Positions 10,281 through 64,000 of a stretch of DNA of 64,000 nt are shown here, piece after piece (within the stretch, counting starts at the first letter, position 1; every line of letters begins with the position of its first letter). Position numbers and translations under genes: made by a program. The notes under the pieces were generated by a model. The model searched no databases. It saw only the letters and a list, made by a program, of their open reading frames with translations, and was not told the DNA's origin. This stretch comes from Stentor roeselii (taxonomy: Eukaryota > Ciliophora > Heterotrichea > Heterotrichida > Stentoridae): the NCBI GenBank assembly GCA_006503475.1, contig RSEH01000055.1, positions 1 through 64,000 on the forward strand, read 5' to 3'.

Positions 10281-10389
10281 AATTATAACTATTTAATAAT
10301 AAAACCTATTGATTAATGGTATAAATTTAATTAAATTGGTTCATCCTTCGTCAAAAATTCATAATTTTACAATCCGTTCATTTAACTAC

Positions 10390-15130: not shown

Positions 15131-15259
15131 GTATGAGCAAAAATTTTAATTTTATTTAGATTTCTCATTCTTGTACCTAATGCTTGTCGAAACTGGGTCC
15201 CTCTTGTGAATATACACTTGCCAATAGTTGGTATTTTATCTAACGACCTTATAAGGATT

Positions 15260-15400
15260 CCTTAAGATATTACACTTTCAGACTCTGGTACGCTGTATTA
15301 TTCAATAATTGCCTACTTATCAAAAACCATCAGAATTTACCTTTCATTTTACTATTAATAAATTTTTAAGTAAAGTGGTATAATTAACTATAAACATAAA
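15260..15400 (+). pseudogene. Fragment resembling the kelch part of the 10.8 kb gene
   Basis: The DNA around 15280-15318 (TCAGACTCTGGTACGCTGTA, then TTCAATAATTGCCTA) aligns by eye with the segment of the 10791 gene that encodes SDDLMLCGYSIIAY, giving YSIIAY in one frame. The match is short and broken, and lies beyond the preceding pseudogene, so a second dead copy or an extension of it is likely. Confidence 0.35.
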
Positions 15401-16209
15401 TATGACCTAACATTATCCTCTGAAGTAACATGATTGTCAATTAAGAGCAATTTCATGTCAAAAGTGTTATCTTTATAATTTCACACTTCCGTATAATTAA
15501 TATTGTGATAATATCTTCTTGCAAAGGCAAAGCTTATCTAAATATTCATCAAATGGAGATTTAAAATTACTTAAACCAATTATAAAATTTCTTTAAAAAA
15601 TGAAGTATTTAAAAATTAGAAAGCAGGTAGATAGTTGAATTTTGTTTAGATTTTTAGAGAGATTGATGATCATCGGTTGGACCTTCATGATTTAATTAAA
15701 AAAAGAGTATCTCAAGACTCTTTATTAAGTCATGGGCTGGGAAGCAGTTCAGATAATAAAAATTTATTAAGGAATATCTTTGGGACCAATAAATATAGCT
15801 ACTAATTAAAGATTTATATTATAGTTGATGTTTAAATACTGAAATTATTAAATGGTTCTGAAAATTATTTTCTCTTGATTTAAAAAATTCAATTCTCATA
15901 TTTAATAATCTTTTTGTAAAGAATCATTTCTAATAAAAGAACAGCTGCAGATGTAACAAAATTTCTAAGATTCAATCCAAAGAGTTATTTCTTCATTAAT
16001 CAAGATTTTTCATGAGTTTCCTGCTTAAAGTTCTATTATCGAAAAAATGATAATAAATATTAGAATATAAGGTTTTATAGCTATTTTCAAGACTTTTTGA
16101 TCAGTAATGATTTCTTAACAGTATTTTAATCTATACAACTAAATATATTCATCATCCTAATTTGTTAGACTTTCATATTTCAAATCAGAAATGAAAACTT
16201 TGATTATAA

Positions 16210-25506: not shown

Positions 25507-27852
25507 ATGTCAGTCTATTCCAACCTTCCTTCAATCCCCAGACAGTCGTCAGAAGACTCGATCTTCAAAAAGCCCTCTTTGATCCTTTCATCTTCAAAAA
25601 AACTTCCCCAAGACTTGTCACTTATTCAAAGGGTCAACCTCGAGATTTTCGGAAACTCTTCATTTAAAAGCCAACAAGAAGAAGTAATCAAAGCGGTGCT
25701 CAACGGAGATGATATTTTCGTTTGCATGCCGACAGGCGCAGGAAAAAGTCTCACTTTTCAACTTCCCGCTGTCATCAGTTCTGGACTCACAGTCGTCATC
25801 ATGCCGCTTGTCTCGCTGATTCAGGACCAGTTGAAAAGACTTGAAACTTTGAATATCAAGTGCAAGGTCATTTCAGGGTCGTTAAGTAAAAAACAGGAAA
25901 GACTTGCTTATGAAGCGATTTTAATGCAAAAGGACTTTAAGATTGTTTTTCTTACTCCTGAAAAACTTTCGAAGTGTGAAAAACTTGCTGGGTTGTTGAG
26001 TGATTTGTATAAGGAAAGAAGGATTGCCAGGTTTGTTATTGATGAAGCTCATTGTGTTAGTAAGTGGGGAAGGGAGTTTAGGGCGGATTACTTGAAACTT
26101 AATCAGCTTAGGATTGACTTTCCGAATGTTCCTATTTTGGCTCTGACTGGAACGGCTACTGATTTGGTTAGGAAGGATGTGGTTAAGGTACTTGGAATGA
26201 GACTTACCAAATTCTTTCTTGATGGGTTTAATAGACCGAATCTTTACTTTCAGGTTGTTTGCAAAACTAAGCAAGTCATACAAGATATTTCGAATATTAT
26301 TAACAACAGGTTTAGTAAACAAACTGGACTAGTTTACTGTGTGACCAAAAAAGACTGCGAAAAAGTATCCTCAGGTCTTCAACATCACGGTATAATCAGC
26401 GGTTTTTACCACGCAGACGTATCTCAAACAAAAAGAAACCAGATCCAACAAGAATGGATGGAAGGAAAAGTTCAAGTCCTAGTAGCAACAATAGCTTTCG
26501 GAATGGGAATCGACAAGCCAGACGTAAGATTCGTGATCCATCATTCATTTCCCAAATCAATCGAAAACTACTACCAAGAGTCAGGCAGAGCAGGGCGCGA
26601 CGGTCAAAGGTCCGACTGCATTATTTTCTTTGATTTCGCCGACAAGAAGAAGCACAGCAACTTGATAAACGAAAACAAAAGACAAGAATTTAACTTTCAC
26701 GAAATCGCAGTCGTGATGAAGTACTGTGAAAACATTTACACTTGCAGAAGAAAGCAAATTTTGGCTTATTTCGGCGAAAATTTCGATGAAACAATGTGCA
26801 AAGGCTTTTGTGATAACTGTAGGAATAAAAAAGAATATCTTGCGAAAGATGTCACTGATGAGGCTCTTAGTATTCTTGATTTTATTAATGACCTGCCCAG
26901 GGGAATCGCGACTTTACCGCAAATTGCAAGTTTTCTTAGAGGAAATTCTCAGAAAGCGAAAATTGTGACGAAAGGAAATTCTTTCTTCGCAGTTCTTACG
27001 ATGATGAAACTTTCAGATATTGAGACTATTCTAAGAAATATGATTTATGAGGAAATTCTTTCTGAAAAACTTGTGAAAGCATTCAGAAAGTTTAAAAAAA
27101 CGAAAATTCTTGTTGGTCCGAAAGCTTTTGCCTTTAAACAGAAACAGTTTCGATTGACTGTTTTGATTGACCTCTGCAAACACCCTGTTTCACTTCCGGG
27201 CAGTGGAAAAGACTTGGAAAAAGGAAAAAAAACTGAAGTTGCCAAGTCGCTCACTGAAAACATCGGAAAAGTTAAACTGAAAAGACCAGAACTTGGAAAC
27301 TCATTCACTGAAATAAAAATAATCAACCCTGATTTCGGACAAGTGAAAGAAATAAAAAAAATTGAAATCCTTCCTAAAATAAAGAAAAATGAAGAAAATC
27401 GTCGAGAAAGCATCGTGATTGACTTAGACGAACCTGTCGAACTTTCAGAAAAAATGGAAAAAATCGCGAAAATAGCTGAAAAACAGGTTTCTGAAACGAT
27501 TTCTATTAATTCAAACATCTTGAAAGATAAAAACTTTGAAATACCTGCTCTTCACTCTTTCCTCACCCAAGACATGTACGAAGAACTCTTTTCGCGACTA
27601 CAAATCGTCAGAAAGTCTCTGAGTAAAAAGCTTCAAAAACCTGAATCCCTGATCTTACCTGACAAAGACCTAGAAATTGCAGCAAGGAGCTTAGAAGGTC
27701 CTCATCTTCTTCCAGAGTTCATCAGAGAAATCCGATTTTTCAAAGAAATCCACAAAATCAAAGATCTTTACAAGTTTCAACTCGACTTAGACTCAATCGA
27801 ACCTCTCGAGTTGAGCCATGTTCTTGGAAACAAGAAACTTAAACATAATTAA
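25507..27852 (+). CDS. RecQ-family DNA helicase, 781 aa
   Basis: Superfamily-2 helicase of the RecQ type: motif 0 FKSQQEEVI at ~55, Walker A MPTGAGKS at ~73-80, DEAH box at ~179-182 followed by CVSKWG, motif III ALTGTAT, then helicase C domain with YCVTKKDCEKV, ATIAFGMGIDKPDVR and motif VI QESGRAGRDGQ near 357. The RecQ zinc site (YCEN...TCRRKQIL...CKGFCDNC) lies at ~405-440, then a winged-helix-like region, a charged low-complexity linker (~555-670), and a C-terminal HRDC-like segment (ELFSRLQIVRKSLSKKL). It unwinds DNA 3' to 5' in recombination and replication-fork repair in the nucleus. Whether it is WRN/BLM/RECQ1-like cannot be decided; there is no exonuclease domain. Synonymous codon choice switches sharply at ~25960, ~26280 and ~26760 (see findings). 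Confidence 0.95.
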   Translation: MSVYSNLPSIPRQSSEDSIFKKPSLILSSSKKLPQDLSLIQRVNLEIFGNSSFKSQQEEVIKAVLNGDDIFVCMPTGAGKSLTFQLPAVISSGLTVVIMPLVSLIQDQLKRLETLNIKCKVISGSLSKKQERLAYEAILMQKDFKIVFLTPEKLSKCEKLAGLLSDLYKERRIARFVIDEAHCVSKWGREFRADYLKLNQLRIDFPNVPILALTGTATDLVRKDVVKVLGMRLTKFFLDGFNRPNLYFQVVCKTKQVIQDISNIINNRFSKQTGLVYCVTKKDCEKVSSGLQHHGIISGFYHADVSQTKRNQIQQEWMEGKVQVLVATIAFGMGIDKPDVRFVIHHSFPKSIENYYQESGRAGRDGQRSDCIIFFDFADKKKHSNLINENKRQEFNFHEIAVVMKYCENIYTCRRKQILAYFGENFDETMCKGFCDNCRNKKEYLAKDVTDEALSILDFINDLPRGIATLPQIASFLRGNSQKAKIVTKGNSFFAVLTMMKLSDIETILRNMIYEEILSEKLVKAFRKFKKTKILVGPKAFAFKQKQFRLTVLIDLCKHPVSLPGSGKDLEKGKKTEVAKSLTENIGKVKLKRPELGNSFTEIKIINPDFGQVKEIKKIEILPKIKKNEENRRESIVIDLDEPVELSEKMEKIAKIAEKQVSETISINSNILKDKNFEIPALHSFLTQDMYEELFSRLQIVRKSLSKKLQKPESLILPDKDLEIAARSLEGPHLLPEFIREIRFFKEIHKIKDLYKFQLDLDSIEPLELSHVLGNKKLKHN

Positions 27853-31935: not shown

Positions 31936-33525
31936 ATGGCTGAAGAGTCTCAAGAAGAGTTTTTAAAGTGCATAAGTCAGTCTACAATCCAAGAGATCTA
32001 CGCATATCTGATGAGAAAAAAGCCTAGCAATATCATGCACATCTGTGACAAAGATGGATACACTGTCTTGCACACTTTAGCACACCACAATAAGCCGCAA
32101 ATAGTTGAGTTCATAATGCGCTATTGCAAAGACTGCTATAGCACGTTATTTTTCAAGGAAAAAGATGACTGGGTTAACAAGAAAACTTATGATGAAGAGC
32201 TGACTTGCGTGCACATCGCAATAATGAGAGGGAATCTGGTACTTTCTAAATAGGACCTGATCAACCTATTCATCAGTTTCGGTGCCCGTATCCACGAAAA
32301 GAACAAACTCGGAATGACCGCAATGCACCTCGCAGCAAAAAGTGACCAAATCCTAATCCTTTCCTGGCTTCGTAACAACAACCACAACGCAGAGTCAAAA
32401 GACAATCTTCAAAACACTCCTCTTCATTACTCCTGTCAAAACAGCTGCGAGTTCGCAACAGCAGTTCTTCTTTCATGGAAAGTAGACGTGAACGTTCTGA
32501 ACAATCGTAAGGAAAGTCCTATTTTCCTTGCAGTTCAGTCCGGTTCTCACAGAATCATCCGAAGTCTGCTGCTTCGAGGCGCTGATGTAAAAGCTCAAGA
32601 CTTGGAAGGAAAAACTCCTTTGGACCTGGCGAAAGAGAAAGAAAATGCTGACATTGAAGCCTTGATAAGACCTCCGGGGATCTTGTCTTTATGTGGGATT
32701 AAACCTCCTCAACGCCCTATAAAGTTAAGACAGATGTTAATGGCGATTTACATTTTCTTGCTTTTAACTGGAATGCTCAGCATTTTCCTAGTTTTAGAAC
32801 TAGATGATAGTATTTACCAGGTCTTGTCATGTTTAGAAATCGTTTTCTTCGTCGTGGTCTGCTTGAAAAACCCTGGGTATATCAAAAAAAATCATGAAAA
32901 AATGCTTTTGGACTTAACGAAAACTATTGAATGTTATCAGATTTGCCCGGAATGTGTTGTTAAAAGACCTCCTCGGTCTAGACATTGTCAGATCTGCAAT
33001 CAGTGTGTTGAAAAGTTTGATCATCACTGTCCTTGGATTAATAACTGCATTGGTGGAAGGAATTTAGGGATTTTTTATTGTTTTCTTATTGTTACTCTTT
33101 GTTTTATCAGCTATTCTGCGGGTCTTTGCGTCATGAACTCTGTTCAAATTTTGAAGAAGCCGGACTTTGAAATGGACATAAAATTGGCACTTTCGTTTAT
33201 TTTTGCATTTATTCCGATTTGCTTCTTCTTTCCGTTGCTGCTGCTGATTACTGTGCAGACTAGGAACTTTTACTCAAACACCACTACTAATGAAAGGTAC
33301 TCTAGAAGGGTTGAGGCTAATAAAATTGAAAGAACGGATTCGGATGAACAGGTTGATCGGTCTAGTCCTTTGAAGAATGTTTGGGAAATGTGTTGCAATA
33401 CACAACAACAAGAATACAAGTCGAAGTCCCCGTTACAAAGCACATTAGACAACGTGACTCGTTACAGTTATATATCGCGAGAATACGAGCTCCAACAAAA
33501 ACTATTACCCGATAACTCAAACTAG
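31936..33525 (+). CDS. Ankyrin-repeat DHHC palmitoyltransferase, 524 aa, one 15-nt intron
   Basis: Two frames join across the 15-nt intron at 32239-32253. Residues ~30-250 hold about six ankyrin repeats (DGYTVLHTLAHHNKPQIVEF, KNTPLHYSCQ-type units, ESPIFLAVQSGSHRIIRSLL, GKTPLDLAKEK). Two membrane helices follow, then the catalytic Cys-rich domain CPECVVKRPPRSRHCQIC then CVEKFDHHCPWINNCIG with the DHHC tetrad, then two more helices (FLIVTLCFISYSAGLCV; LSFIFAFIPICFFFPLLLL). This is the layout of Akr1/ZDHHC13/17. The enzyme transfers palmitate from acyl-CoA to Cys residues of cytosolic proteins at Golgi or endosomal membranes. Cys-rich N-termini of two proteins in this window (28.3 kb minus strand, 30.7 kb) are possible substrates, but that is speculation. 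Confidence 0.93.
32239..32253 (+). other. 15-nt intron (GTACTTTCTAAATAG)
   Basis: GT...AG, 15 nt, phase 0, with an in-frame TAA/TAG. Removal joins RGNL to DLINLFISFGARIHEK, restoring an ankyrin repeat. Confidence 0.92.
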
Positions 33526-44374: not shown

Positions 44375-47300
44375 CTAATAACGATCCTCATCAGCTTCTG
44401 CCTTTTTCGCAAATCCATTGAATATCTGTTCCAAAGACGTCATACTAACAGCATAATCCGAAATCTTAAGTTCCTTTTTGCTATTTTCCACAACAGAAAA
44501 CAAGTACCCAATACTTTTCTCCTCCTGTCTCTTCACCTTAAACTTAAACATAAGATGATAATGTTCAATCACCTCGACCACCAAGAACTCAGCAGAAAGC
44601 CAATTAAAAATTTCTCTTCCACTCATCTCAACAAGGCACCAATTAGCAAGATTTTCAAGCGAAATAGCTCCTTCCGTAACAATAAAATTATAAATATAAG
44701 CTCCAGGAGCTAAAGGTCGAATAGATTCCATTAAAAACCCGATATTTGCAGCATCTAAAACAATTCTAATTGATTCAAAAGTGACTCCAAGATGAGAATT
44801 CTGGAAATTTCCGAATTTTTGAATTAAATCTGCGACTTGCTCTTGATTTGGAGGTTCAATTTTTACTTCAAGTTCGTAACCGTCGCCAAATTTGTTTTTT
44901 ATCCAGGTGCTGGTCCCGATGCACTTCAGTCTTCCTTTTACCATGATTGTCATTCGGTCACAGAGGGCTTCGGCTTCTTCCATTGAGTGAGTTGTTAAAA
45001 TCACTGAAGATTTCTGCTTTTTTATACTGCCCAGAATCTTCCACATGTTTTTACGTGCTTCTGGGTCCATACCTGCTGAAGGCTCGTCCAGGAAAACAAC
45101 GGATGGGTTACCGATTAAGGCCATTGCTACTGATAGCTTTCGCTTGTTGCCTCCACTGTAGGTACCTGCTAGGATGTCTCGATATTGTAGCAGGTCCATG
45201 TTTTCAAGCATGTAGTCTACTTGCTCTTCTATTTTTTCTTTTGGGATTCCTTTGATGTGAGCGTAGAGCTCAAGATGTTCTCTCCCAGTCAACAACTCAC
45301 TGATGGCATCAAACTGTGGGCAATACCCAATAAAATTCCTCGCTTTAGCCAACTCCTTAGTAACACAAAACCCTCCAACATGAGCACTTCCCTGATCACA
45401 AAACAATTCCCCAGTAAGAATTTTAAAAAGAGTAGTTTTTCCTGCTCCATTAACCCCAAGTAAAGCAAAGCACTCTTCATGATAAACATTAAAAGAAACT
45501 CTATGAACCGCAGGAAAGACTTTTCCTTTAAGCTTAAAACATTTCAAAGCTTTTTTGACATTAACTTGAACATCTTTAGGTTGAGTTTCATTTGCGACTT
45601 CAGCTTCCCTTGCAACATCATCATCAAGAACACAAAGTTCATCTTCAACATCCTTCCTTCCAAGTAAACATCGAGCGAAAGCAGGGTTAGTTTCAAAAAG
45701 TTCCAACAAAACAACGATTCCAAAGTAAACAAAAGTAATAATCCCCATCATCAACATGCACCCTCCAGCACTTCTAATATCAAAAGCATTAAACGGCTCT
45801 TTTCTTTCAAAAAAAAATGCAAAGTTAGTTTTCGCTCCGATATTTAAAACTCCCCAACCAAAGCAAAAATTAGGAAAAATCCTTAAAAGCCAACTTAAAG
45901 CCACCCCTGCTTTTCGACTTTCTTTAAAAATATGCATGACATAGATAGACGAGGGAAAAATAGCTCCTGTCACAAAACTCATCAAAAGAGTCGCGATTTG
46001 CGCTGTTGAGTGACTTTTAAATAAAAAGCTTAAAGCGTAGCTGAAAGGAACTTCACAGACTCCTCCTAAAACAATTAAAACCCACATCGCGCCGTAGTCG
46101 TCGTTGTCGTCATTGTAGATATCGACTTGAAACGCGAGGATCATTAAGCTGCAGACAATTGCAGGTATTGAATGTTTTAAAAGATCCCAGAAGAGGTTAC
46201 TGAGCCAATAAGCCGAGAGAGAAACTCCACTTATCATGTGTTGATGTTTTATGTTGTTTTCTCTTTCTTTTGTGATGAAGAGAACGATTCCTGTCGGGAT
46301 GAAACTGAAGCCAAGTGAAAAAACAAGGGATCCTAAGAAGCCATCTCCTGTTCCTCCTACTTTTGACATTGATTCTGTGTTTGGTAAAGGATGGTTGTAG
46401 TACTTTATATTGATTCCTTTAGTTTCTTTTAGGATTTCTTTGCTTATTGCTCCGAAAGATGTCGCGTAGGACTGGAAAGCCTTTTGGTCGTTTATGATGC
46501 TGATGTTAAAAAGACCTTCTTCGTCACAGTTGCTGAAATAATAAGAATTTACTATTTTTGGTTGATCGTCGAGGTTATCAAAGAGGTAGTCGCTGAAGTC
46601 TTCTTGATTTTTTGTATTTGTTTGGAATTTTTTTACGTTTTTCATGTTTTCTACGAATTTGTAGCATTTTTCATCGCCTCCGAAATGGACTTTTTGAGTT
46701 TCTGGGTATCTTGATACACGTAGTTCGTAAGAACTGTATTCTTTTAAAAAGCCAGGAATCATCATCAAGGACAATCCAACAATAACAAGAATAATCGGAA
46801 TAAAAACCTCGAAAAACATGGTCTTTTTGTCTCTTAAAGTTGCCAAGGCTCTCTTTTTCAGCAGTGCTTTGAAATGTTTAAAGAAAAGTGAACCTTTTTC
46901 TTTATCTCTTTCAAGTTTAAACGAATTTTCCCTTAAAAGTTCAGTTTTTTCATCATTTTCCTCTTTTTTATCTTTCATCTTAAGTTCCTCATCACCTCTG
47001 GCAACTCTTAAAAAAACTTCTTCTAAAGTAGTAGCAGACATAGAATAAGACAAAAGTCCAAATTTCTCAAACTTCTCATCTAAAACTTCAAAAAACCTTG
47101 AAAACTGTGAAGAACTCGCAGAAGGTAGTTGAAAAGTGACTTCTCCTTGAAAGTCATTCATAATTTTCGCATTATCAACATGTCGAGTAACAAATTTTTC
47201 AATTTTTTTCGTATTTTTCAAGTTTTCCTGATTTCTTACAAGAGTTAAGTAATACCCTACTCCATATCGACTCTTTAAAAAAAGTGAACTTCCACAGCAC

Positions 47301-49474
47301 CTGAGTTTCCCTTGCGACATAATCGCGATTCTATCAGCGAGAACATCAGCTTCTTCCATATAATGAGTGGTCAATATAATGATTTTTCCATTTTTGTTGT
47401 TTTTCAGCATGTCCCACATATGGCGCCTTGCAGTCAGGTCCATTCCTGAAGTAGGCTCATCTAGAAGGACTATTTGGGAATCTCCGATTAAAGCTAGAGC
47501 TAATTGAAGTTTTCGCTTCTGACCTCCTGATAAGTTCTTGGCCTCTACGTCGCATTTTGATGTTAATTCCAGTTCTTTTAGCTTTATACTGCTTAGTTCT
47601 TTTATTAGTTTCGAGTCGTTTATGCCTTTGAACTTGCAAAAAAGACTCATGTGCTCGAAAGGTGTTAGATCTGGGAAGAGGATGTTTTGTTGAGGACAGA
47701 CTCCTAGTTTTTCACGAAGGTTTTCAAGGTCTTTTGATAATAGAAGGTTATTCACTGTCATTTCACCCGAACTTGGAGGGATTAGACCTGTGAGCATTGA
47801 TATTGTGGTTGTTTTACCGGCACCGTTGTGACCTAGTAAGGCGAAGATTTGACCTTCGAATATGTCTAGGTCGAGACCGTCTACTGCTATTTTATTCTGG
47901 AATCTTTTAGAGAGTCCTCTCACGATCATGGCTTTACCGTTGTTTTTCTGCGACTCAAGCGCACTATCAACATTTTCAACCGAATCCGGCCATTGCACAG
48001 TTTCCTTTCCCAAATCATTTTGATAAACAGTACTTTTTCGCCTACACCAAAATTCCTTCGTAAACAAAAAGTACCACTTCCTCTTGACTCCCCACTCAGT
48101 AGGCCAAACAGCTTCTAAATAAGCAGCCAAAAGACTAAGATAAACAATATCAATAATAATCATTCCAAAGTAAAGTCCATGAGAAAAGTTCGAAATTTCA
48201 TATCTCGAATTATCAGGCTGCATGCCTCGCTGTCCTTGTTCAAGTCGAGTGATCACATTGGTACCAAGACTAAAAGCAACACAAGGCAACAACGAAGCCC
48301 CTGCTTTTTTATTCATACTCAACAAGGGGTCATTCACAGCGAAACTAACGAAGTAGCTTCCAATGAAAACAGGGACTCCAATCAAAACTGCACTTCGAGA
48401 CTTAGAAAAAAAAACGCTTAAAAATATGCTGAAAGCGATGCAGGATATAGAAAAAAGCCAAAAGTACAAAAAAATCAACCCGGGCCTGGAAAATGTGAAG
48501 ACTTTCATGCCGACTGTGATAAGAGTAATTAAAATGCTGATTACTGTGTAAATAGCAAGATAATAAGTGATCCATGAACACCAGTAAGCTGAACTTTTCA
48601 GTCCCATCATCATCATCATCTCTTTTGTACGTGTTTCTTTGTCTTGCACTATTAAAGATAACAGTCGACAAACGGGGATCAGGAATGAAAAAATCAAGAG
48701 AAAGACTAAAGTGTTTCCTAGGTTTTCAAGGAAAGTATCTTCTGTGTAGTCGTCAAATCGCATTGGCATGAACAACGCGTTGATTGATTTTTTGGTTGAA
48801 TTGTTTTCACTTAGGAGGTAGTTGTTTGTCAGGCCCATTAATGATAAAAAACCGTATCTGTAGAAGTCACGAAGATGGTCTGTTGGAGATACTATCAACT
48901 CGTTGTAAGATGGGTTTGAGTCTAGGTTAAAGATTTGAATGAATTGACCTAGTCGACGGTTTCGACGAGTTGAGTAGGTTTCGGTGATGTTGAACCTTAG
49001 CCATAGTTTGTATGATTTTGAGGAATAGGACTCGAATTTCACTGCAAAGCATATTTTTCTCTTATCTTCATAGTTTGAACTCGTGATATAGTCCTCAAAT
49101 TCCGCTTCAGATTTAAAGTCAATAAATTTTCCTTCAAGTCCTGGTTGAAACAATGAAATTCCACTCTTCATGAAGTTTTTGTATTGTTCATCTGAAGAGA
49201 TAATTGAATAATACAATTCGTAGTTATCATCAAGATCTCGGCACCCTTTGAAAGGAATTTGATTTTGATTGAATGAAATATATTTTGAGTCTTCCAACTG
49301 GTCACTGAATGACTGCTGGTCTTTGTAGGATGGAGGAATCGCTTTTCGGAGAAGTCCAATGACAATCATTGTGATTATAGGGAAAACAATTTCAGATATC
49401 GAACCTCGAATGCGACGTCGCCATAAAATCCAGTTTTTGTAAAGCAGAGCTTTATATTGGATCCAAAAGCCCAT
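44375..49474 (-). CDS. ABCA-type full ABC transporter, 1699 aa
   Basis: Same architecture as the gene at 35258-40360 and nearly the same length. Walker A of NBD1 GHNGAGKTT near 548, LSGGQKRKLQLALAL, IVLLDEPTSGMD; NBD2 GVNGAGKTT near 1340, YSGGNKRKLSVAMAL, VVFLDEPSAGMD. Identity with the paralogue is very high in the ATPase cores (stretches of 40 or more identical residues) and lower in the first extracellular loop (~60-220), the second extracellular loop (~930-1070) and the C-terminal ~150 residues, suggesting different lipid or substrate handling. Starts in TATAAATGGG like its partner and ends in TAG. Probable lipid exporter or flippase in plasma or vesicle membrane. Confidence 0.95.
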   Translation of the reverse strand: MGFWIQYKALLYKNWILWRRRIRGSISEIVFPIITMIVIGLLRKAIPPSYKDQQSFSDQLEDSKYISFNQNQIPFKGCRDLDDNYELYYSIISSDEQYKNFMKSGISLFQPGLEGKFIDFKSEAEFEDYITSSNYEDKRKICFAVKFESYSSKSYKLWLRFNITETYSTRRNRRLGQFIQIFNLDSNPSYNELIVSPTDHLRDFYRYGFLSLMGLTNNYLLSENNSTKKSINALFMPMRFDDYTEDTFLENLGNTLVFLLIFSFLIPVCRLLSLIVQDKETRTKEMMMMMGLKSSAYWCSWITYYLAIYTVISILITLITVGMKVFTFSRPGLIFLYFWLFSISCIAFSIFLSVFFSKSRSAVLIGVPVFIGSYFVSFAVNDPLLSMNKKAGASLLPCVAFSLGTNVITRLEQGQRGMQPDNSRYEISNFSHGLYFGMIIIDIVYLSLLAAYLEAVWPTEWGVKRKWYFLFTKEFWCRRKSTVYQNDLGKETVQWPDSVENVDSALESQKNNGKAMIVRGLSKRFQNKIAVDGLDLDIFEGQIFALLGHNGAGKTTTISMLTGLIPPSSGEMTVNNLLLSKDLENLREKLGVCPQQNILFPDLTPFEHMSLFCKFKGINDSKLIKELSSIKLKELELTSKCDVEAKNLSGGQKRKLQLALALIGDSQIVLLDEPTSGMDLTARRHMWDMLKNNKNGKIIILTTHYMEEADVLADRIAIMSQGKLRCCGSSLFLKSRYGVGYYLTLVRNQENLKNTKKIEKFVTRHVDNAKIMNDFQGEVTFQLPSASSSQFSRFFEVLDEKFEKFGLLSYSMSATTLEEVFLRVARGDEELKMKDKKEENDEKTELLRENSFKLERDKEKGSLFFKHFKALLKKRALATLRDKKTMFFEVFIPIILVIVGLSLMMIPGFLKEYSSYELRVSRYPETQKVHFGGDEKCYKFVENMKNVKKFQTNTKNQEDFSDYLFDNLDDQPKIVNSYYFSNCDEEGLFNISIINDQKAFQSYATSFGAISKEILKETKGINIKYYNHPLPNTESMSKVGGTGDGFLGSLVFSLGFSFIPTGIVLFITKERENNIKHQHMISGVSLSAYWLSNLFWDLLKHSIPAIVCSLMILAFQVDIYNDDNDDYGAMWVLIVLGGVCEVPFSYALSFLFKSHSTAQIATLLMSFVTGAIFPSSIYVMHIFKESRKAGVALSWLLRIFPNFCFGWGVLNIGAKTNFAFFFERKEPFNAFDIRSAGGCMLMMGIITFVYFGIVVLLELFETNPAFARCLLGRKDVEDELCVLDDDVAREAEVANETQPKDVQVNVKKALKCFKLKGKVFPAVHRVSFNVYHEECFALLGVNGAGKTTLFKILTGELFCDQGSAHVGGFCVTKELAKARNFIGYCPQFDAISELLTGREHLELYAHIKGIPKEKIEEQVDYMLENMDLLQYRDILAGTYSGGNKRKLSVAMALIGNPSVVFLDEPSAGMDPEARKNMWKILGSIKKQKSSVILTTHSMEEAEALCDRMTIMVKGRLKCIGTSTWIKNKFGDGYELEVKIEPPNQEQVADLIQKFGNFQNSHLGVTFESIRIVLDAANIGFLMESIRPLAPGAYIYNFIVTEGAISLENLANWCLVEMSGREIFNWLSAEFLVVEVIEHYHLMFKFKVKRQEEKSIGYLFSVVENSKKELKISDYAVSMTSLEQIFNGFAKKAEADEDRY

Positions 49475-50299: not shown

Positions 50300-52528
50300 T
50301 TAGCTACTCTGGAGAAAGCCAGCAGCTGAACTATTAAAAACATTCAAAAAAGTGTTGTTCAAAGCAGGGTCCTGAGCTTTTACAACAAGACTCGCAGTTT
50401 TATTAGAAGGAGTTGCAGTAAATTCAACCAAAAACACTTTTTCACTTGCCAAGTCCCTTGCAAAGAAAAAGAACTTGAAAACTCCTAAATTATCTCCAGA
50501 GGCAATGCAATAAATGCCTTCATTCGCCATGATTTTCTCGACATCTTCAATATTAATCATTCTACTAAGTCTTCTTTCTTGTTGAGTGGTTTGACTAAGT
50601 CTTTCCCAATAATTTTGAAACTCTTCAGCATCCATCACAAAACTTTTATCAATTTCAAAAGCGCCAGGTCCAACAGCAAGAGAATCTAAACTAAGCAGGT
50701 CAGGAGCTGGAACATTTTCAACTTCAGGAACAGTAAATTCAGGTCTTGGTTTATTTAAAGTTTTCGCTGGTTTCTGATAAATTACTGAAAGTTGATTGAA
50801 TTCTTGTGAAAGAATTTCTTGAACGTCAGTCATATCGTCTTCTAAGAAATTTTGAATAGGATGTTTTGACATGTTTAAAATTTCATTCGCTGTTGATGGG
50901 CCTTGTCTTAGAAGCTCGTAGTAAAAACCGGCTCTGTCAAGAAGGTCGGGATTTTCACATTCATTGAGAAGTTTCTGGTAGAGTTGAGGAAGAATGTCTT
51001 TCATCTCACCTGCTCGCTTTAGGAATAAACGAACTGTTGCTGTTAGGATCGCGTGAGTGATTTGAAGGTTTTCGTTGCAGTTTAAGAGAGTTATTAGGTT
51101 TTCGATTATGTATGGAGCGTCTGTTATGTCTTCGCCGAACTCTCCGATCATCCAGATTATTGCTGCTTTGCCTTCGTCTTCACTGGATATTTCTAAGTAG
51201 TTTTCAATTTGGACTAATACTTCTAGACTTATGTGACGGTATTTTCGGACTAGGTCTTTCATTGCTACTAGAGTTTCGGTTATCACGTAGTCGATGTTTA
51301 GGGAAAGGAAACTTAAAAGTTGACGGACTATTGCAACGCAGGCTGGGGATATTTTGGTACCGATTTTAGAGATTGCTTGAATGGATTTCTTACTTATTTC
51401 AACATTAACATCAGTCACATACGCACTAAGTTCAACAATAATATCATTAACCGATCCTTCCGAGACAATCATAGTCAAAATATCAATTTTCATAAATTTG
51501 ATATAAGTCGGTTCATCAAACTTGCAAAAGAAAGTCTTAAAGTCATTTTCAAAAGCACTAGCAGCACCTTTAGAAATAAGTAAATGAATATGAGCCAAGA
51601 CACAATACGCCAGTTCATAAGACCCACCAACCTCAGCTCCAGCAAAAAGTGTGATTAAAGCAGGATGAATCCTTCCATAAACCTGTCGAGTCATAAGCTG
51701 ATTTTCCTTAGTATAGTTCAAAAAAACCTTAATACATCCTAAAACAACACTACTCGACGAATGCTTAAGCCTTTCCTCTAAAATATTCAAAATATCAAGC
51801 ATTTCATCATCTCCAGAAGGCGAATACCTCGCAACCAAATCAAAAACAATGCTCTGTCCAAATTCCGTATAATTTCCAATACGATTGAGTAAATAAATAA
51901 CCATTCTTCTATTAATCGCGATTCCTCCTTCCTCCTCTAAAATTTCATTAAGCGAGACAATAGAATTGATAGAGACCATGGCATCAGGGTCTCTAATCAG
52001 TTCATATAAATTATTCACAAAATTGTTTCCAACAACTAAATTTTTCGAATACCTGTGAAGTTTAACCAGTCCAATCACAGCAGTTTTCCTCACATAAGGG
52101 TCAGGATCAGTCATTCCATCCTGAATAGCAGACAAGATATACTCAACAGCTGCAGGAAAGCGAAGACTACAAAGGTACCTCAAAGCAAGTCCTCTAATCT
52201 GAGGATTTGGGGTAGAATGTCTCTTACAGTCTTTACAAAACGTATTAATTGCCATCAAAGCTTGTTCTTGATGTGACTCGACATAATTAACCAGGTATAA
52301 ATAAATCATCTTCTTCTGCACGATATCATCCGTATGTGAAATCAAGACCATGTCCGTGAATAATACAGAGACGTCAACTCCTAAAGTCATATGCGCGATC
52401 ACCTTTTTAATCACTTCACGTCGCTTCAAATTGTCTCTTTCACTCATTATTCCCTTCAATGAAGTCCTCAACTCAAGCACCTCTCCTTTCTTGTTTTCCA
52501 CGAAGAACTGGGGTGGAGATGAAGCCAT
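50300..52528 (-). CDS. AP4B1: AP-4 complex beta-adaptin, 742 aa
   Basis: The N-terminal ~550 residues are the adaptin HEAT-repeat trunk: DIVQKKMIYLYLVNY, AINTFCKDCKRHSTPNPQIRGL then ALRYLCSLR, DPDPYVRKTAVIGLVKLH. The region KTFFCKFDEPTYIKFMKI and EGKAAIIWMIGEFGEDI, the length (human AP4B1 is 739), the short hinge without a clathrin box, and FNQLSVIYQK fit beta-4 better than beta-1/2. The C-terminal ~120 residues match the beta appendage (VEKIMANEGIYCIAS... FKFFFFARD...VFLVEF). AP-4 sorts cargo from the trans-Golgi network without clathrin. The start is 5 bp from the divergent Utp7 gene's start. Synonymous codon use changes at ~50880 and ~51380. Confidence 0.88.
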   Translation of the reverse strand: MASSPPQFFVENKKGEVLELRTSLKGIMSERDNLKRREVIKKVIAHMTLGVDVSVLFTDMVLISHTDDIVQKKMIYLYLVNYVESHQEQALMAINTFCKDCKRHSTPNPQIRGLALRYLCSLRFPAAVEYILSAIQDGMTDPDPYVRKTAVIGLVKLHRYSKNLVVGNNFVNNLYELIRDPDAMVSINSIVSLNEILEEEGGIAINRRMVIYLLNRIGNYTEFGQSIVFDLVARYSPSGDDEMLDILNILEERLKHSSSSVVLGCIKVFLNYTKENQLMTRQVYGRIHPALITLFAGAEVGGSYELAYCVLAHIHLLISKGAASAFENDFKTFFCKFDEPTYIKFMKIDILTMIVSEGSVNDIIVELSAYVTDVNVEISKKSIQAISKIGTKISPACVAIVRQLLSFLSLNIDYVITETLVAMKDLVRKYRHISLEVLVQIENYLEISSEDEGKAAIIWMIGEFGEDITDAPYIIENLITLLNCNENLQITHAILTATVRLFLKRAGEMKDILPQLYQKLLNECENPDLLDRAGFYYELLRQGPSTANEILNMSKHPIQNFLEDDMTDVQEILSQEFNQLSVIYQKPAKTLNKPRPEFTVPEVENVPAPDLLSLDSLAVGPGAFEIDKSFVMDAEEFQNYWERLSQTTQQERRLSRMINIEDVEKIMANEGIYCIASGDNLGVFKFFFFARDLASEKVFLVEFTATPSNKTASLVVKAQDPALNNTFLNVFNSSAAGFLQSS

Positions 52529-52533: not shown

Positions 52534-54009
52534 ATGGATAAAAGACTGCAGGCCAGACTAAAGGCTGCGCATTCTTACTACCATGAAGACCGCGCGATAA
52601 ACGCCCAGCAGTCTTTGCTGCTGACCCAGCAAGAAGGCTTTCTTCTTCCTGATGAAGGCGAAATCACAGCGCGAGTCAAGCAAGAGCAGATAAAAGGACT
52701 TGTTCCTCTTTACACAAGTTCGAAAATGATTGATTTGAACTTGAAGTTTGGTGGGTATTTCTTGGACTATACTCGAAATGGCTCGTTTTTAGCACTTGCT
52801 GGGCAACAAGGGCATCTTTCATTGATTAACTGGCGTGATTTTAAAGTACTTACTGAGTTTCATACGAAAGAACTTGTTAGAGATGTTAAGTTTTTGCATA
52901 ATGAACTACTTTTCGCTGTCGCTCAAAGGAAAAATTTGTTTATTTATGATAGTCAAGGACAAGAAGTGCATAATTTAAAGAATCATGTAGAACCTCAGAA
53001 GTTGGAATTTTTGCCTTATCATTTTTTGCTTGTTTCTTGCAATAATCACGGGTTTCTCAAGTATGCAGATGTTAGCACTGGAAAGCAAGTTGCTGAACAT
53101 CGCTTTCGATTTGATCAGGTCAATGATATGAAGGCTAATCCTTGGAATGCCGTTGTCGCTGTCAGTGATGGAAAAGGAATTGTCTCGATGTGGACTCCGA
53201 ATGTTAATAAACCTGTTGTTCGAATTGTTGCTCATAATGGACCTGCACTCGCGTTGGCTATTGATCAACGAGGACTTTATATGGCTTCGAGTGGCGCTGA
53301 TAACAAAGTTAAGATTTTTGATGTTAGGAATATTGATGAACCGCTTTATGAGTACTGGACTCATGCACCCGCTAAGGTTTTAGATATCAGTCAAAATGGA
53401 TTACTTGCGGTTAATGAAGGAACTTGTGTTAAAATTTGGAAGGATTGGCAGGTGACCAAGCAAAAATGCCCATACATGGAAGAAAAATCCAAAACATCAG
53501 TCCTGGACTTTAAATTCGTCCCATTCGAAGACTTGCTAGGTCTCGGAACCCTAAACGGTTTCCATCAAATCTGCATTCCAGGTTCAGGCCTGGCGAATTT
53601 CGACTCCTTAGAGCAAAACCCATTCCAAAGCAAGCGTCAAAGACAAGAGCTCGAAATAAGATCCCTTCTCGACAAGCTTCCGGCCGAGAGCATCGTCTTA
53701 AACCCTCACGAAATCGGTACAATAGACCCTGCATCAAAAGAAGTCCTCGAAGCAGAAGCCAAAGCAGATCGAGAAGAACGTGAAAAGCAAGACCAAGAAA
53801 AGCGTAAAAAGAAGAAAAATCCTGAAGAAAAGACTAAAAAACAATCCGTTCACGATAAAAAAACTCGAGAAAAAATCCAGGAGTCGATAAAAGTTCAAGA
53901 AAAACCGAAACACGAGATAAAAATGCAGAACGTGAAAGATATCAAGTTTTTAAATGAAGTCACTGCAGAGTTGTTAGGACTTCCAACTAAGAAAAAGAAG
54001 CTTGAGTAG
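52534..54009 (+). CDS. UTP7: Utp7/WDR46 small-subunit processome protein, about 491 aa
   Basis: Starting at MDKRLQARLKAAHSYY. An earlier in-frame Met at 52459 would overlap the AP-4 beta gene. The N-terminal helix region with LLLTQQEGFLLPDEGEITAR and the phrase GGYFLDYTRNGSFLALAGQQ are hallmark Utp7/BING4 sequences. A WD40 propeller follows (~60-330; FDVRNIDEPLYEYW), then the BING4CT domain (DFKFVPFEDLLGLGTLNGF, then PGSGLANFDSLEQNPF), and a Lys/Glu-rich tail. Utp7 is a core part of the U3 SSU processome for 18S rRNA maturation in the nucleolus. Codons are G/T-ending from ~52700 to ~53450 and A/C-ending afterwards. Confidence 0.93.
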   Translation: MDKRLQARLKAAHSYYHEDRAINAQQSLLLTQQEGFLLPDEGEITARVKQEQIKGLVPLYTSSKMIDLNLKFGGYFLDYTRNGSFLALAGQQGHLSLINWRDFKVLTEFHTKELVRDVKFLHNELLFAVAQRKNLFIYDSQGQEVHNLKNHVEPQKLEFLPYHFLLVSCNNHGFLKYADVSTGKQVAEHRFRFDQVNDMKANPWNAVVAVSDGKGIVSMWTPNVNKPVVRIVAHNGPALALAIDQRGLYMASSGADNKVKIFDVRNIDEPLYEYWTHAPAKVLDISQNGLLAVNEGTCVKIWKDWQVTKQKCPYMEEKSKTSVLDFKFVPFEDLLGLGTLNGFHQICIPGSGLANFDSLEQNPFQSKRQRQELEIRSLLDKLPAESIVLNPHEIGTIDPASKEVLEAEAKADREEREKQDQEKRKKKKNPEEKTKKQSVHDKKTREKIQESIKVQEKPKHEIKMQNVKDIKFLNEVTAELLGLPTKKKKLE

Positions 54010-55190: not shown

Positions 55191-58100
55191 ATGTTGGGTT
55201 TGGTATTTCTGGTGATGATTAGTGCTTTGAGAATAGAAGTCATTCCTTTTTTTCAGTCTTTGGTTGTGAAGGACTCTTTAGACCTTGGAGTTTTTAACGA
55301 CTTTGGCTTGAACTTTGAGATGGATTCTGCGAGTTGTGTATTTTTTTATAATTCAATTGAAAATTCTGAGGAAAAACAGGATTTTCTTCAGGTTTTTAAT
55401 GGAACTGATCTAGTTTTAAAGGTTTCTAAATATAGCAAAAGCTTTTCAGGACTATGGGGCCCGGTTTCATCTAACTTTTCAAGTGAAACAAGTGAAGTTC
55501 TTCATGAATGGCGAATGGTTTTGATATCAGTTCGGACTTTAGCCTCTTCAACAGTTGAGCTGTTTTTTTCAGTCTTAAAAAGTGGCGAACCAGAAAGTGA
55601 ATCTTTGACTTTGAGTTATTCCAGCACTTTTATCGCACTTTCTCCAAATTTCCGAGTAGAACTTCCAAAAAACACTAAAAAAATACTTATCAGTGGACTA
55701 ATGTTCCTTTCTTTTACGTCTACCTTCAACGACCTGCTGCCTTTCGAAGTCCTTCCAAAGTTCCAAGTGAATGATTTTGAAAGATTCGCATTGGGAGTAA
55801 AGATTATTTAGCTTCGTTCTTTTGCTAACTACTCTCAAGCCAATGAGACTAAAAGTCTTGATTCAACGAGTTATTTGATGAGTTTTGAAAATCAAGAGTT
55901 TTTAGTAGTCAACTCAAGAAATGACTCGTGTAGTTTTAATGTTTGTGTTGAAGTTTCGACTTCAGAAAGTAATGAAAATGTTATAAATTCAAATGCCTGG
56001 GAAACACAGAAAGTCTTTGATATTGGGACTTGGAAACCTGCATGTTTCCCTTCTTTCTCACAGGTTTCTAATGAAAGTTTAGTTGTTTTTGAAGATAGTT
56101 TAAATTTTGGAAGAAGATATTTGGTAAAAATGATGAAACAGAAAGATAGGTACTTTTCGAGTTTTGATGAAAAAAAAATGTTTTTTATGAAATTTGGAGT
56201 CAATAAGAAGAACTTGAAAGCTGTTAAGGGTCAGAAGTTTAATGCTTTTGTTGAAATGGACTTTTGGCTGTGGAGTCAAGGGTTGATTGTCCTTTCAGGG
56301 AACTGCAGCAGTACTTGTGTTGATATTCAAGAAAATAAAATAATTATTGAAGACCCTTCAAATTCTGTTTATTCTTTTGTTATATCTGTCTTCGGACAAA
56401 ACTATTTACATGAGTTTCAGCTGAGTTTAATAAATTCAAGTGAATTTTCTTTGAATTTAGAAATAGAAGCTTTTTACGAGATTTCCAATAAAGTCTTCAT
56501 GATCGACTTCGAAGACTTGGAATATCCAGAAGCCGAAATGCATGCCTGTCGAAGTAATCATGGAATAATCTCCATCAACGACTCAATTTACCTCTACCTG
56601 CCAGTCACTTCTCGCTTTACCTTAGAAGTAATTTGTAATAACTCTGGTGGAAGCGAGTTTTCATTGCAAAAGCAAATTTTTACTAATAAGGACCCTTATA
56701 TTGAAGAATCTGGATTTTTTAAAGCTTGGGTCGGGTTCTTGTTTTACGCGGAACTTCAAGTTAATGATGAGGATGGTGATCAGATTTTAGTGACTAGTGA
56801 AATTTGGCAGGTTAATGGCAGTAGTATTTATGCAACTTTCAATGAATCTGGAAAAACTTGTGGAAATGTTAGTGTTGATGACGGGTTTTCAAAGGTTTCT
56901 TATGAGATTTGTGTTGAGATTGAAACTCCTCCTGCTGTTTTTAACCTGAATGAAGAGTGTTTGGTGGAAAATTTATGTTTTTTTGACCGGTCTTCAATTA
57001 CAGAATCATTAAAAGTGGCTAATCACAGTGTTTCTAGCAGTTTCTTATACTGGATCCCTGAGATTAAAGGTTCATTCGAATTTGACCTGGTCTTGAAATC
57101 AAGTTATACTGAAATATCATCAAAATTATCAAGCAACATTGAAGAAAAACTCAAATTTATTCTAATTCCATCCACTTTCGGTATATGTGGAGATTCCTTT
57201 GAGTTTAACCTCAGTTCCATAAATTTTAACCCTCCTTTCAACTACACCTCAAATCAAAATCTTTCAATAATCGATGAAGTCCTCCAAGGAAAAATAGAAG
57301 AAATCAACTTTTTCTTACTAAAATCAAAAAAATCAAAAAATTTCGCTTTTTTGATCTTCACATTTCTCTGCGATTTTCCTGAAGTCCAACAAAATATCTC
57401 AATATCAGCAGTTTATTCTAAGCCAGTCAAGTATTTCTTACCTTCTCTTCTTTATTCAGAATACTTTTCTAATGATCCTGAAATTCGAGTTGATGAAGTA
57501 AACGGAATTTTTTACTGGGACTTTCCAACTGAGGTGAAAACTTTTGAACTTTACACTAAAGACCCTCGATTTACTGAACAGTTTTTTTATTTGAATGTTT
57601 TGACTTCGAGACCTGTTCCTGTCATTGAGATGAGTCAGGAGTTTTTAGCATTTTTTTCAATGCAAGAAAGATCGATTCGAGTTAACTTCACTGCGAGTTC
57701 TGAAGCTATTATTGATTATGATACTGATTATTTTTTTGGAGATATTTTTGAAGATTATGTGATTTTGAAAATCAACTCTACTGAAGCGATTTTAAATACT
57801 TTGAGTTACTTTACAGTGATTGAACCTAAAACTGAAAATTTTGAGTCTTCTCAGGCGACTTTTTTGTTTATTTTTAGTGTTTTTGAGTTTGTTGCTCCAG
57901 TCTTAGAAGATATTTCATTTTACTGTGTTGTAGGAAAAAGTTACTCGATAGACTTAAGAAACTGTAAGATTTAATCAGTCATCATCCATTTATACCCTTC
58001 GTACCTTCCTTTAACTATTTACTTCAATTCGAACTTGCTGGAATCTTGGGAACTTATCCTAACCCCAACAACACCTGAATTCTATTTCACTTTAAAAGCT

Positions 58101-61100: not shown

Positions 61101-64000
61101 TACAAGCCTTCCAACTCCTGTTCTTTTGCAACACTTCAGATAAGTCCACAGCCCTTAACCTTTGACTTCCTTTCAATTCAGCTTTCTTTAAACCAAGGTC
61201 ATTCCTTCCACCCTTTCAAATTGACCCTGAAATTAAAAGGCTTATGCAACCCAGGCGAGTATCTCTCTTCAGGTCTTTGCAAGGCTTGTCCAGCAGGTCA
61301 TTTTTGTGAGTTTTTCGCTTTCAGCCCTGAAGATTATTTATTCACTGCAAATCCCTGTGAAATAGGTTGGTACAACCCTACTGAAAACTCGACTACTTGT
61401 TTAAAATGTCCAAAAGGTTCTCAGTGCTTCTGCCGAGGCCTAACTGAGCACTTTCTATGTGATGCAGGATTTGTCTGTGACGAGGAAGGTCTAGTGAAAC
61501 GATGGAAGCCTTGCCCGAGTGGACGTGTGTGTCTTGCGGGTACTTCCTCTTCACAAGACGATTCAGGAGGTCCTGAGTTATGCCCTGAGGACAACTATTG
61601 CTTCAACGGGGTCTTTACCCTGACTGTAGATGAAGACAACCCTTACGCCCCGAGGCCTTGCGAGGCGACAGTCATATGTCCAGCAGGAAGTACGAATCCT
61701 TTAGGAGTGATCGACTGTTCAATAGGTTACTTTTGCGTTACTTTCACCGTCACTCAATTCGACGATGACATATTTCAAGACCCGAGCCAATGCGCGGTCA
61801 GGAAATGTCTCTGCTCAAAAGGCTACTACTGCCCCAGTGACCAACTCAGCAACCCAATCATCTGCCCCAAGGGAAAGTTTCAGCCTGAATTCGGAAGCGA
61901 CTCATGTCGAGACTGCCCTGTCGGCTTTTACTGTCCTTGGAGTTTGGAGGCTTCTCCGAAACAAGCAGTTGAATGTGAAGCTGGATTCAAATGTCTTGGA
62001 AATATGCCTGATCATATCGAGTGTCCCTTGGGAGAAGCTCAAAATCGCACTGGTCAGGAAAATTGTGAAAAATGCTTGAAAGGAACTTATCAGAATGAGT
62101 TAGGGCAAAGTGAATGTAAGGTTAGTATTGAAGGGTATTATTGTCCTGATGTTGGAATGTCTTCGATGAAGATATGCCCTGAACGTTATTATTGTTCTTT
62201 GACTGGGATTAACGAGTATGAAAGACCTGTTGATAAAAGTCTGCCTGAAGTCTTTCCTGAGGATTTGAGTGAGGACTTGATGGTCAAGTTTCCTCAACAG
62301 TGCCCTGCTGGGTATTATTGTCCGAGTAAAACTTCATTTCCGATACCCTGTCCTATTGGAAGCTTTCAAGGCAGTCAGGGCGAAGCCGCTTGTATCAGAT
62401 GTCCTCCTGGAAGACTTTGTTTAAATATTTCGACTGTCACGCCGAGTAAATGTCCTTCTGGGAACTTTTGTGTTAATAACAAGATGAATCCTTGCCCTGC
62501 TGGGTACTTTTGCTTGGAAAATACACAAACTCAGGACCCTCTTGATTCAAGTGAGTTTAAACCTTTGCCTTGTTTGAAAGGAACTTTTTGCACAGGGGGA
62601 AATACGGATTCGAAACCGAACTTGGGTGTTGCTACTAGTGCTCAAAACTGCTCTGAAGGGTTTTTTAATGATAAAGAGGCACAGATTCAGTGTCGAGAAT
62701 GTCCTGCTGGGTTTGAATGCTTGGATGTTGGAATGGTTAGTCCTACCTTGTGTAAACCTGGAAGGTATAGGAATTTTGATATTACTATTAAGGAATGTGT
62801 TGAGTGTCCTGAAGGAACTTTTTTGCCTGATTATGGAGGAAAATCTATTTCTGATTGTTTGAACTGTTCAGCTGGGATTGTTTGCAATGTTTCAGGCTCC
62901 AACACCGAAAACAACTCATACCCTTGCCCGGCAGGTTACTTCTGTATACCAGGAACAAGTCGAGACACTCGAAACAACAACCCTTGTCCAGCAGGTTTCT
63001 ATTGTCTTCCAGGCACAAAAAGTGAAGAAGAGTCTCTGCTTCATAAATGTCCTCCAGGCCGATACTGCGCATCAGCGACAGCAGTAGAAAAAGACGAAGA
63101 ATGCTTGAGTCCCAATAATTGCTCAATAGGGTCGATATGTGAAACTAACAACTACTGCCCTTCGCATACACCTGAAATGATTGCTTGTCCTTCAGGATAC
63201 ACATCAATTGCAGGGTCGTTTTCTATTGATAACTGCACCAGAACATCTCCTACTTTCTATAAAAGTCAAGTTATTCGAACTGTTAAGGCTACTGATTGGA
63301 TGGAACTCACACCACTTGCTTATCACTTGTTTGATTTGAACTTCTTGAAGGAAATTCAAAATGCATCGATTCCTCATGACTACCAACTTCTAATAACTTT
63401 TGACTTTGGAAACAAAAGAAGTCTTCTCTCAAAAAAAGTAGAAAACTTGCTAGTTTCCAACTCATCATATGGCACAAAATTGAGTGTTCCTATGTTATAT
63501 TCATCTAAAAGTATCCTTCTCGACAGTCCTGATGTGAAACTATCAGTGCAAGTTTTTCATGAAGCAAAAGTTTTATTCGAGTTTCAGCTTCTCAACTCAA
63601 GTTACGAAAATTTATTCGGATGGAAAGATTTCCAGGTTCCTTTAGTAAGTGTAAAAGAATTAAAAATTTCTGAAGTAAATTCAGGACTTTATTGCGTATT
63701 AACTGAGAAAATTGGAGAAATCGTTGAAGATCCTGTGAATTTATATAAAACGATTTTTATTGACGAGGAAAATTCTCCTTTAGATCAAAATCCCAGCTTT
63801 GAGTACAGATATTCAATGAGTTTAGTGCTGAAGGAAACAAATATCACTGAAACTCTTCCAACTCCAAAACAAAATACATCTTCTATATGGGAATCTACGA
63901 ATTCCACATCATTAGTGCTTGACTACCTGCCTTACATTACCAACTGTTACCCTGATTTCGGAGCCAATCTTCCAATAAACCAGCTGATAAATAATGACAA
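55191..64000 (+). CDS. Giant secreted/surface protein with cadherin-like, IPT/TIG and ephrin-receptor-like Cys-rich repeats (partial, >2,921 aa)
   Basis: Begins MLGLVFLVMISALRIEV, a likely signal peptide. With three 15-nt introns removed (55797-55811, 57964-57978, 58402-58416) the frame stays open to the window end, 2,921 residues and unfinished. Residues ~200-1740 hold cadherin/dystroglycan-like Ig repeats with calcium-type DEDGD motifs (VNDEDGDQILVTSEIW; CSDEDGDSILFQLLEGPEGM). An IPT/TIG domain lies near 1750-1840 (LKILEINGRNFGNYGKVIIG...RILCQVPHP). From ~2010 to ~2690 are many Cys-rich ephrin-receptor/TNFR-like repeats (CPAGYYCPSKTSFPIPCPIG; CPPGRLC; CPAGFYCLPGT). Many N-x-S/T sites. Such ciliate proteins usually end in membrane helices; that part is outside the window. 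Likely cell-surface adhesion or recognition. Codon blocks alternate along the gene. Confidence 0.88.
55797..55811 (+). other. 15-nt intron (GTAAAGATTATTTAG)
   Basis: GT...AG, phase 0, contains an in-frame TAG. Joins FERFALG to LRSFANYSQANE. Confidence 0.92.
57964..57978 (+). other. 15-nt intron (GTAAGATTTAATCAG)
   Basis: GT...AG, phase 1, contains a stop in the upstream frame. Joins SIDLRN to FIIHLYPSYLPL. Confidence 0.9.
58402..58416 (+). other. 15-nt intron (GTAAGTTTTAAAAAG)
   Basis: GT...AG, phase 1, contains an in-frame TAA. Joins KDYPDIS-Y to SQEFEVEVLPHIL; the frame then stays open for more than 5.5 kb. Confidence 0.92.

Follow-up and report, generated by a model that had tools for sequence, protein, structure and literature searches.

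Synonymous codon choice in Stentor roeselii follows a saw-tooth: along either strand, the third codon bases lean slowly from A/C towards G/T and then fall back suddenly, and the shape is identical when read from both strands. The G/T-to-A/C edges (drops) were sharp, at about 30 bp or less, while the A/C-to-G/T edges (rises) were mostly gradual. We tentatively attribute this pattern to recurrent strand exposure at fixed points, most likely at double-strand breaks with 5′ resection, a reading to which we give slightly less than even weight.

The saw-tooth runs through a RecQ-like open reading frame (ORF) of 781 codons in the window, by which we mean the whole 64,000-nucleotide stretch of contig RSEH01000055.1 that was analyzed (Table 1). 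The ORF is intact, and its DEAD, Helicase_C, RecQ_Zn_bind and RQC domains are all present, which bears out the claim, made in an initial reading of the letters (the sequence-only reading), that the helicase gene continues across the edges. The hand counts of G/T-ending codons given there (80 of 101 in 25969-26271 and 21 of 88 in 26344-26607) were exact. Summed over 20-codon bins, G/T-ending codons numbered 38/100 in 25507-25806, 127/180 in 25807-26346 and 32/120 in 26347-26706; the 3′ half contained a neutral bin (26707-26766, 10/20) followed by 85/140 in 26767-27186 and 80/220 in 27187-27846, so that the flips back near 26760 and 27180 were recovered as well. The edges had been called abrupt, which is correct for the two G/T-to-A/C edges (best positions 26331 and 27171) but not for the two rises, near 25800 and 26780, which are gradual. 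As the lean decays and edges are sharp mainly one way, what had been described as block-wise switching is better named a saw-tooth around point sites. Third-base clustering in RecQ reached a z of 14.7 when synonymous codons were permuted, amino acid by amino acid, within the gene. With codon weights trained on data that include RecQ, the largest drop (111.0) exceeded all 2000 synonymous shuffles (maximum, 71.7), and the largest rise scored 78.2 against a maximum of 70.1 in 2000 shuffles. The profiles of the RecQ paralogs compared gave correlations of 0.01, 0.10, -0.25 and 0.72, and no conserved points are claimed for them.

Table 1. Saw-tooth features of the RecQ gene and other sharp points in the window
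Feature	Position	Strand	Basis
RecQ-family helicase ORF carrying the saw-tooth	25507..27852	+	domains, shuffle z 14.7
A/C-leaning stretch, 38/100 codons G/T-ending	25507..25806	+	20-codon bins
G/T-leaning stretch left of first sharp point; rise called at 25805	25807..26331	+	bins
Sharp G/T-to-A/C point, best 26331, 95% interval	26301..26346		matched-filter z 6.3
A/C-leaning stretch right of first point	26332..26780	+	bins
G/T-leaning stretch left of second point	26781..27171	+	bins
Second sharp RecQ point, best 27171, 95% interval	27165..27282		greedy fit 27168
A/C-leaning 3′ part of RecQ; 80/220 codons G/T-ending from 27187	27172..27849	+	bins
Sharp point, DHHC/ankyrin gene 32314-33525	33378..33426		drop interval
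Sharp point, ABC transporter gene 44375-49474	45257..45284		drop interval
Sharp point, ABC transporter gene 44375-49474	46724..46766		drop interval
Sharp point, ABC transporter gene 44375-49474	47936..47954		drop interval
Sharp point, beta-adaptin-like gene 50300-52528; strongest in the window	51374..51407		z 8.4
Sharp point, WD40/BING4 gene 52459-54009	53442..53469		drop interval
Sharp point, ORF 55875-57974	56972..57047		drop interval
Sharp point, ORF from 58539 running off the window end	62879..62900		drop interval

Under synonymous shuffling, 12 of the 19 window ORFs tested showed clustering at P < 0.05. Two stretches of the window are AT rich (1-19800 and 40400-44300; GC about 25 to 32%), and in the first of these clustering was found in one of five ORFs tested (10791-12221, z 5.7), unlike in most of the remaining window. 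The ABCA-type transporter genes at 35258-40360 and 44375-49474 form a tandem pair with 67% amino acid identity and have partial relatives on other contigs. The adaptin-like protein had no relative in viral_contigs.

The pattern was scored in the window plus 20 further pieces (197 kb), together 21 pieces and about 261 kb. The further pieces were not random: 19 of the 20 were placed at helicase matches on other contigs, and one adjoins the end of the window. The genome uses the standard code, with TGA as a rare stop (6 of 135 ORF ends). Together with the short candidate introns, the repeats at contig ends and the Piwi-domain matches described below, this code fits the macronuclear assembly of a heterotrich ciliate, but one unlike Blepharisma stoltei, which is described as reading UGA as Trp (PMC9942806). 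On the keto axis (G/T versus A/C at third positions), z exceeded 3 in 73 of the 101 ORFs of at least 250 amino acids in the 21 pieces; these ORFs did not fit the single distribution under codon shuffling that the sequence-only reading had set as the test of its claim. The same shuffling test gave z > 3 in 24/101 ORFs for GC3 and in 5/101 for purine/pyrimidine. A lean mainly along one axis, with C/T and A/G shifting jointly in opposite GC directions, is the mark of a strand asymmetry. A matched filter at z > 4.5 called 82 drops and 32 rises, against 1 to 7 drops and 1 to 8 rises in 20 synonymous shuffles. Every one of the 21 pieces contained at least one fitted drop, and 110 drops were fitted in 237 kb, about one per 2.2 kb, a count that misses weak sites; the codon weights had been trained on the same sites that were later located with them. 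In this site-unit fit the window was handled in 10.7-kb chunks, and the drop at 53454, which lies beside a cut, is absent from the resulting list. The median spacing of fitted drops was 1305 bp (89 intervals), and 29,648 of 65,617 codons lay within 500 bp of one. Drops were spread along ORFs (9, 16, 19, 19 and 17 in successive fifths; 80 sites), although their location inside genes is partly a detection limit, as they were searched for mainly in coding sequence.

Several measures agreed on the one-way shape. Skewness of the local jump was -0.59 with 60-codon arms (bootstrap z, -7.8), with the same sign for plus- and minus-strand genes; with 8-codon arms it was not significant (z, -0.8). Units centered on drops outperformed units centered on rises at all seven shapes tried (best, 1033 versus 464 penalized log-likelihood units), and with the best drop shape (linear, 600 bp) 110 drop sites reached a penalized 1033, compared to 397 for 96 rise sites. 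Summed over sites, 63 drops fitted the narrowest edge width tried and 29 rises the broadest; individually, the narrowest width was best for 45 of the 63 drops, while the rises were divided between the broadest (14/29) and the narrowest (10/29). The drops had been selected with a sharp kernel, and the broad summed fit of rises selected with the same kernel is a partial guard against bias. In simulations on the same proteins, the real drops resembled true widths of 1 to 30 bp (narrow test widths place them at 1 to 15 bp and wide ones at 15 to 30 bp). For 59 sites, the 90% interval of the point spanned a median of 8 codons.

On average, on both sides of a point, it was the strand with its 3′ end toward the point (the 3′-facing strand) that was G/T rich. 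The asymmetry is thus opposite to the left and to the right, with the 3′-facing strand poor in C and A as expected for a resection scar, although 8 of 71 sites look one-sided. On isolated sides (those clear of other detected drops for 1.8 kb, or for 1.5 kb up to the piece end), the lean was flat to about 200 bp and reached zero by 600 bp, and from there out to 1.5 kb it was zero or marginally negative; successive 100-bp steps gave 0.207, 0.215, 0.181, 0.136, 0.076, 0.026 and 0.003 and then values from 0.002 to -0.036. This confinement to less than 600 bp agrees with the tract length expected of a resection scar. Left and right amplitudes per site were correlated at -0.26 (71 sites), a value biased downward by selection on their sum. 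The lean of the end blocks of neighboring ORFs gave an r of -0.06 (85 pairs) in a test of low power, the within-gene correlation itself going from 0.14 to 0.00 and -0.21 over gaps of 0 to 200 bp. Repeats of CCCTAACA stand at the ends of several contigs among the matches listed. At four macronuclear chromosome ends (L039 to L042), a small and mostly noncoding sample, the keto fraction of the 3′-facing strand was 0.52 to 0.59 over the 150 bp next to the telomere, slightly G/T in all four, with no 400-bp plateau.

Within 100 bp of a point, third positions of the 3′-facing strand consisted of A.195, C.072, G.280 and T.453, compared to A.341, C.197, G.156 and T.306 at 900 bp. T/C and A/G switched jointly in most codon boxes; for example, the T fraction of Asp was.86 versus.23 and the G fraction of Ser TCR codons.59 versus.07. 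GGY, CGY and GAR codons barely followed the lean in the pieces examined, which hints at mutational sequence context or at codon-specific selection. First and second positions shifted by about 0.026 each from 0-300 to 600-900 bp, roughly a tenth of the third-position shift, the first-position value including synonymous Leu and Arg changes. Amino acids shifted weakly on the exposed strand, with Val, Ala and Phe up and Ser, Thr and Pro down. Given the tenfold-larger shift of third positions, the scar probably reflects many events under purifying selection rather than one hypermutation event. Within 20 to 40 bp of drops (window and pieces L009 to L028), AA/TT, Phe and Lys were somewhat depleted (Phe z, -4.0 among 20 amino acids), a weak hint.

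On the break reading, the DNA of the inherited nucleus would open again and again at each point, with a double-strand break as the most likely cause; the 5′-ended strands would be resected, leaving the 3′-ended strands single stranded over about 400 nt, and damage or error-prone refilling on the exposed 3′-ended strand would produce C>T and A>G changes. Purifying selection would purge most nonsynonymous changes, so that the scar would persist mainly in third positions. Whatever holds a point in place is not apparent from the macronuclear sequence and may be a germline-limited insertion or an epigenetic mark. This reading is favored by the opposite asymmetry of the 3′-ended strands on both sides of a point over a few hundred bases. 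It is weakened by the fact that the direction of mutation is read from composition alone. Spo11 cleavage is usually less tight than these edges, and simple deamination should favor C>T, while C>T and A>G look balanced here; both points count against breaks. Further counterweights are the weak response of GGY, CGY and GAR codons, the equality of GC3 near and far from points (0.362 and 0.355), which also leaves no sign of GC-biased conversion, the side amplitudes, which are not positively correlated, the one-sided sites, a weak noncoding lean in the drop-centered table and the 10 rises that individually fit the sharpest width.

In vertebrate mitochondrial DNA, C>T and A>G changes arise on the strand left single during replication, and the exposed strand is G+T rich. 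The putatively exposed strand is G+T rich in our data as well, but the mitochondrial skew has one sign over a whole strand, whereas the skew around our points changes sign at intervals of a few hundred bases. A likeness in polarity is found at human meiotic breaks: passages of PMC7615360 describe C>N and A>N changes on the forward strand and G>N and T>N changes on the reverse strand in break flanks, with forward-strand C and A mutated to one side of PRDM9 hotspots and the complement to the other, and discuss resection and single-stranded DNA. This shared polarity supports the break reading, as does the single Spo11/TopoVI-A family match in the S. roeselii genome. The human case differs in that extra mutations surround motif-defined hotspots whose central 100 bp are symmetric, with no asymmetry at the break center (±100 bp) (PMC7615360); here, the points are dense and motif free, the tracts around them are shorter, synonymous composition itself is reshaped, and the lean is at full strength up to the point, a feature that weakens the analogy with breaks.

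In a ciliate, a natural guess is that the points are junctions of germline-limited segments (internal eliminated sequences [IESs]), with the exposure caused by an IES that is cut by accident or acts as a barrier. We consider this explanation, which combines with either breaks or fork arrest, unlikely. It would account for sharp intragenic points without a motif at a detected density of about one per 2.2 kb. In Blepharisma, with a somatic genome of 41 Mb, IESs are reported to number about forty thousand, of which about 70% lie inside genes (PMC9942856, PMC9942806); 12 Piwi-domain matches were found in the S. roeselii genome. The TA-bound IES junctions of this fellow heterotrich (PMC9942856) resemble our points in being precise, intragenic and of comparable density, but our points showed no TA enrichment. 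The posterior-weighted TA fraction was 0.317 versus 0.307 in shifted controls (59 sites), while about 0.41 would be expected by our arithmetic if three quarters were TA bound as in Blepharisma (mean sum of squared posteriors, 0.194), which argues against the usual kind of IES. Within narrow intervals, TA was present in 15 of 18, against an expected fraction of 0.77, a comparison of little power. No PiggyBac DDE match was found in the genome, although none was found in any control genome either, and no retained insert was seen at drops in the copies of a multicopy family that were compared. The word "skew" occurs 0 times in the main text of PMC9942856, and we found no description of such a saw-tooth in the open-license PMC literature searched, including the opening lines of the abstracts of the ciliate codon usage papers PMC8927777 and PMC10384029.

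The points could also be sites of replication fork arrest in the germline, at which forks stall from both sides and expose the lagging-strand template (plus on the left, minus on the right). Such arrest predicts the same polarity, sharp edge, short decay and composition as breaks do, and it would act at every germline division. However, no barrier motif was found at the points (among k-mers of k 2 to 6 at 57 drops, none was judged to survive multiple testing), and a tract of about 400 nt exceeds the usual Okazaki spacing. We regard fork arrest as rather improbable.

Selection acting on the order of codons, on translation or on RNA structure (the last of these offered in the sequence-only reading) is very unlikely as the cause. 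It would fit an effect that is strongest at third positions, to which GGY, CGY and GAR codons barely respond, and a weak noncoding lean around the sites (within 500 bp in the drop-centered table, noncoding keto fractions of 0.52 to 0.56 versus 0.57 to 0.73 at third positions). The joint flips of T/C and A/G in most boxes and the shift in amino acids speak against it, and the lean is not confined to coding sequence. Strict noncoding DNA (stop-free runs of at least 45 codons masked; mean, 123 bp per end) shared the lean of the adjoining coding end (r 0.60, 92 ends, P 0.0003), both upstream (r 0.57, 50 ends, permutation P 0.0003) and downstream (r 0.53, 42 ends, P 0.0007). Such selection leaves this noncoding lean and the amino acid shift unexplained; together they indicate that the lean is written in the DNA. 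On balance, a purely codon- or RNA-level cause is disfavored despite the weak drop-centered noncoding lean.

Replication origins at very high density, with the leading strand rich in A/C, are still less probable. In vertebrate replication N-domains, skew jumps at origins on the megabase scale, each unit having a sharp and a gradual edge; this contrast between an abrupt change at a fixed origin and a slow change elsewhere counts in favor of origins. The units described here share this edge pattern, but their jump has the opposite sign, the usual leading strand being G/T rich, and initiation would be needed about every 1 to 2 kb, given the median drop spacing. Nor is the sign constant between switches, as an origin/terminus skew would have it; on sides with no neighbor detected within 1.8 kb, the lean has vanished by 600 bp. 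Least probable of all are the inverted germline segments or patchwork gene conversion that the sequence-only reading had proposed: both would yield sign changes within a gene, but they predict equally sharp rises and drops, no polarity and no decay within blocks, contrary to the one-way sharpness and fade seen here, so that of that proposal the strand-asymmetric mutation stands at the DNA level and the inversion as its cause does not.

Evidence on the persistence of the points came from one multicopy family. It includes the small contig C366 (L014, positions 1-6934), which matches C341, C401, C482 and C504; full-length ORFs are absent from the matching part of the L036 to L038 copies. The L014 drop near 2879 recurs in L036 (86% identical), and the drop near 1978 recurs in L038 (91% identical there); in L037 (89% identical), the DNA to the left of the first drop is missing and the rest of the profile is shared. 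The L016 copy, at 96% amino acid identity and with 64% of 103 fourfold sites different, has a different profile. In this family, points can apparently outlast 9 to 14% DNA divergence and turn over by the time of synonymous saturation. Polarized changes among copies (Fisher P 0.007) were set aside, because direction is uninformative at stationarity and the outgroup differs in state. Conserved points in the ABC paralogs were rejected as well: the profiles correlated at 0.58 and 0.65, but fourfold sites were unsaturated (0.56 different versus 0.68 shuffled), the 95% intervals of two seemingly shared drops did not overlap, and a third comparison gave an r of -0.07, so no conserved sites are claimed. 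An association with introns, whose candidate lengths peak at 15 nt, was likewise discarded; at 16 candidate introns of 15 to 16 nt, the mean left-minus-right difference was -0.185 (standard error, 0.111), the reverse of the sign that a drop would give, and 2 of the 16 lay within 70 bp of a fitted drop.

A broader proposition, which we consider possible but doubtful, is that the synonymous codons of this genome record fixed sites of germline strand opening, roughly twenty thousand of them or more, with positions inherited via germline-limited elements or an epigenetic mark rather than via retained DNA, and with repair as a major, perhaps dominant, source of nearby synonymous substitutions. The figure scales 110 sites in 237 kb to the 44.4-Mb macronuclear assembly and takes the pieces to be typical. 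Since neighboring gene segments would be under opposite mutational pressures, studies of codon usage, dN/dS and gene trees in genomes of this kind could be misled. If the proposition is true, the sites at which inherited DNA has opened could be read to within tens of bases from one genome sequence, and this for an organism with a germline genome that is hard to obtain. It would then become testable whether ciliate germlines break at fixed points, whether these points are IES junctions, and what share of neutral evolution stems from break repair rather than from replication.
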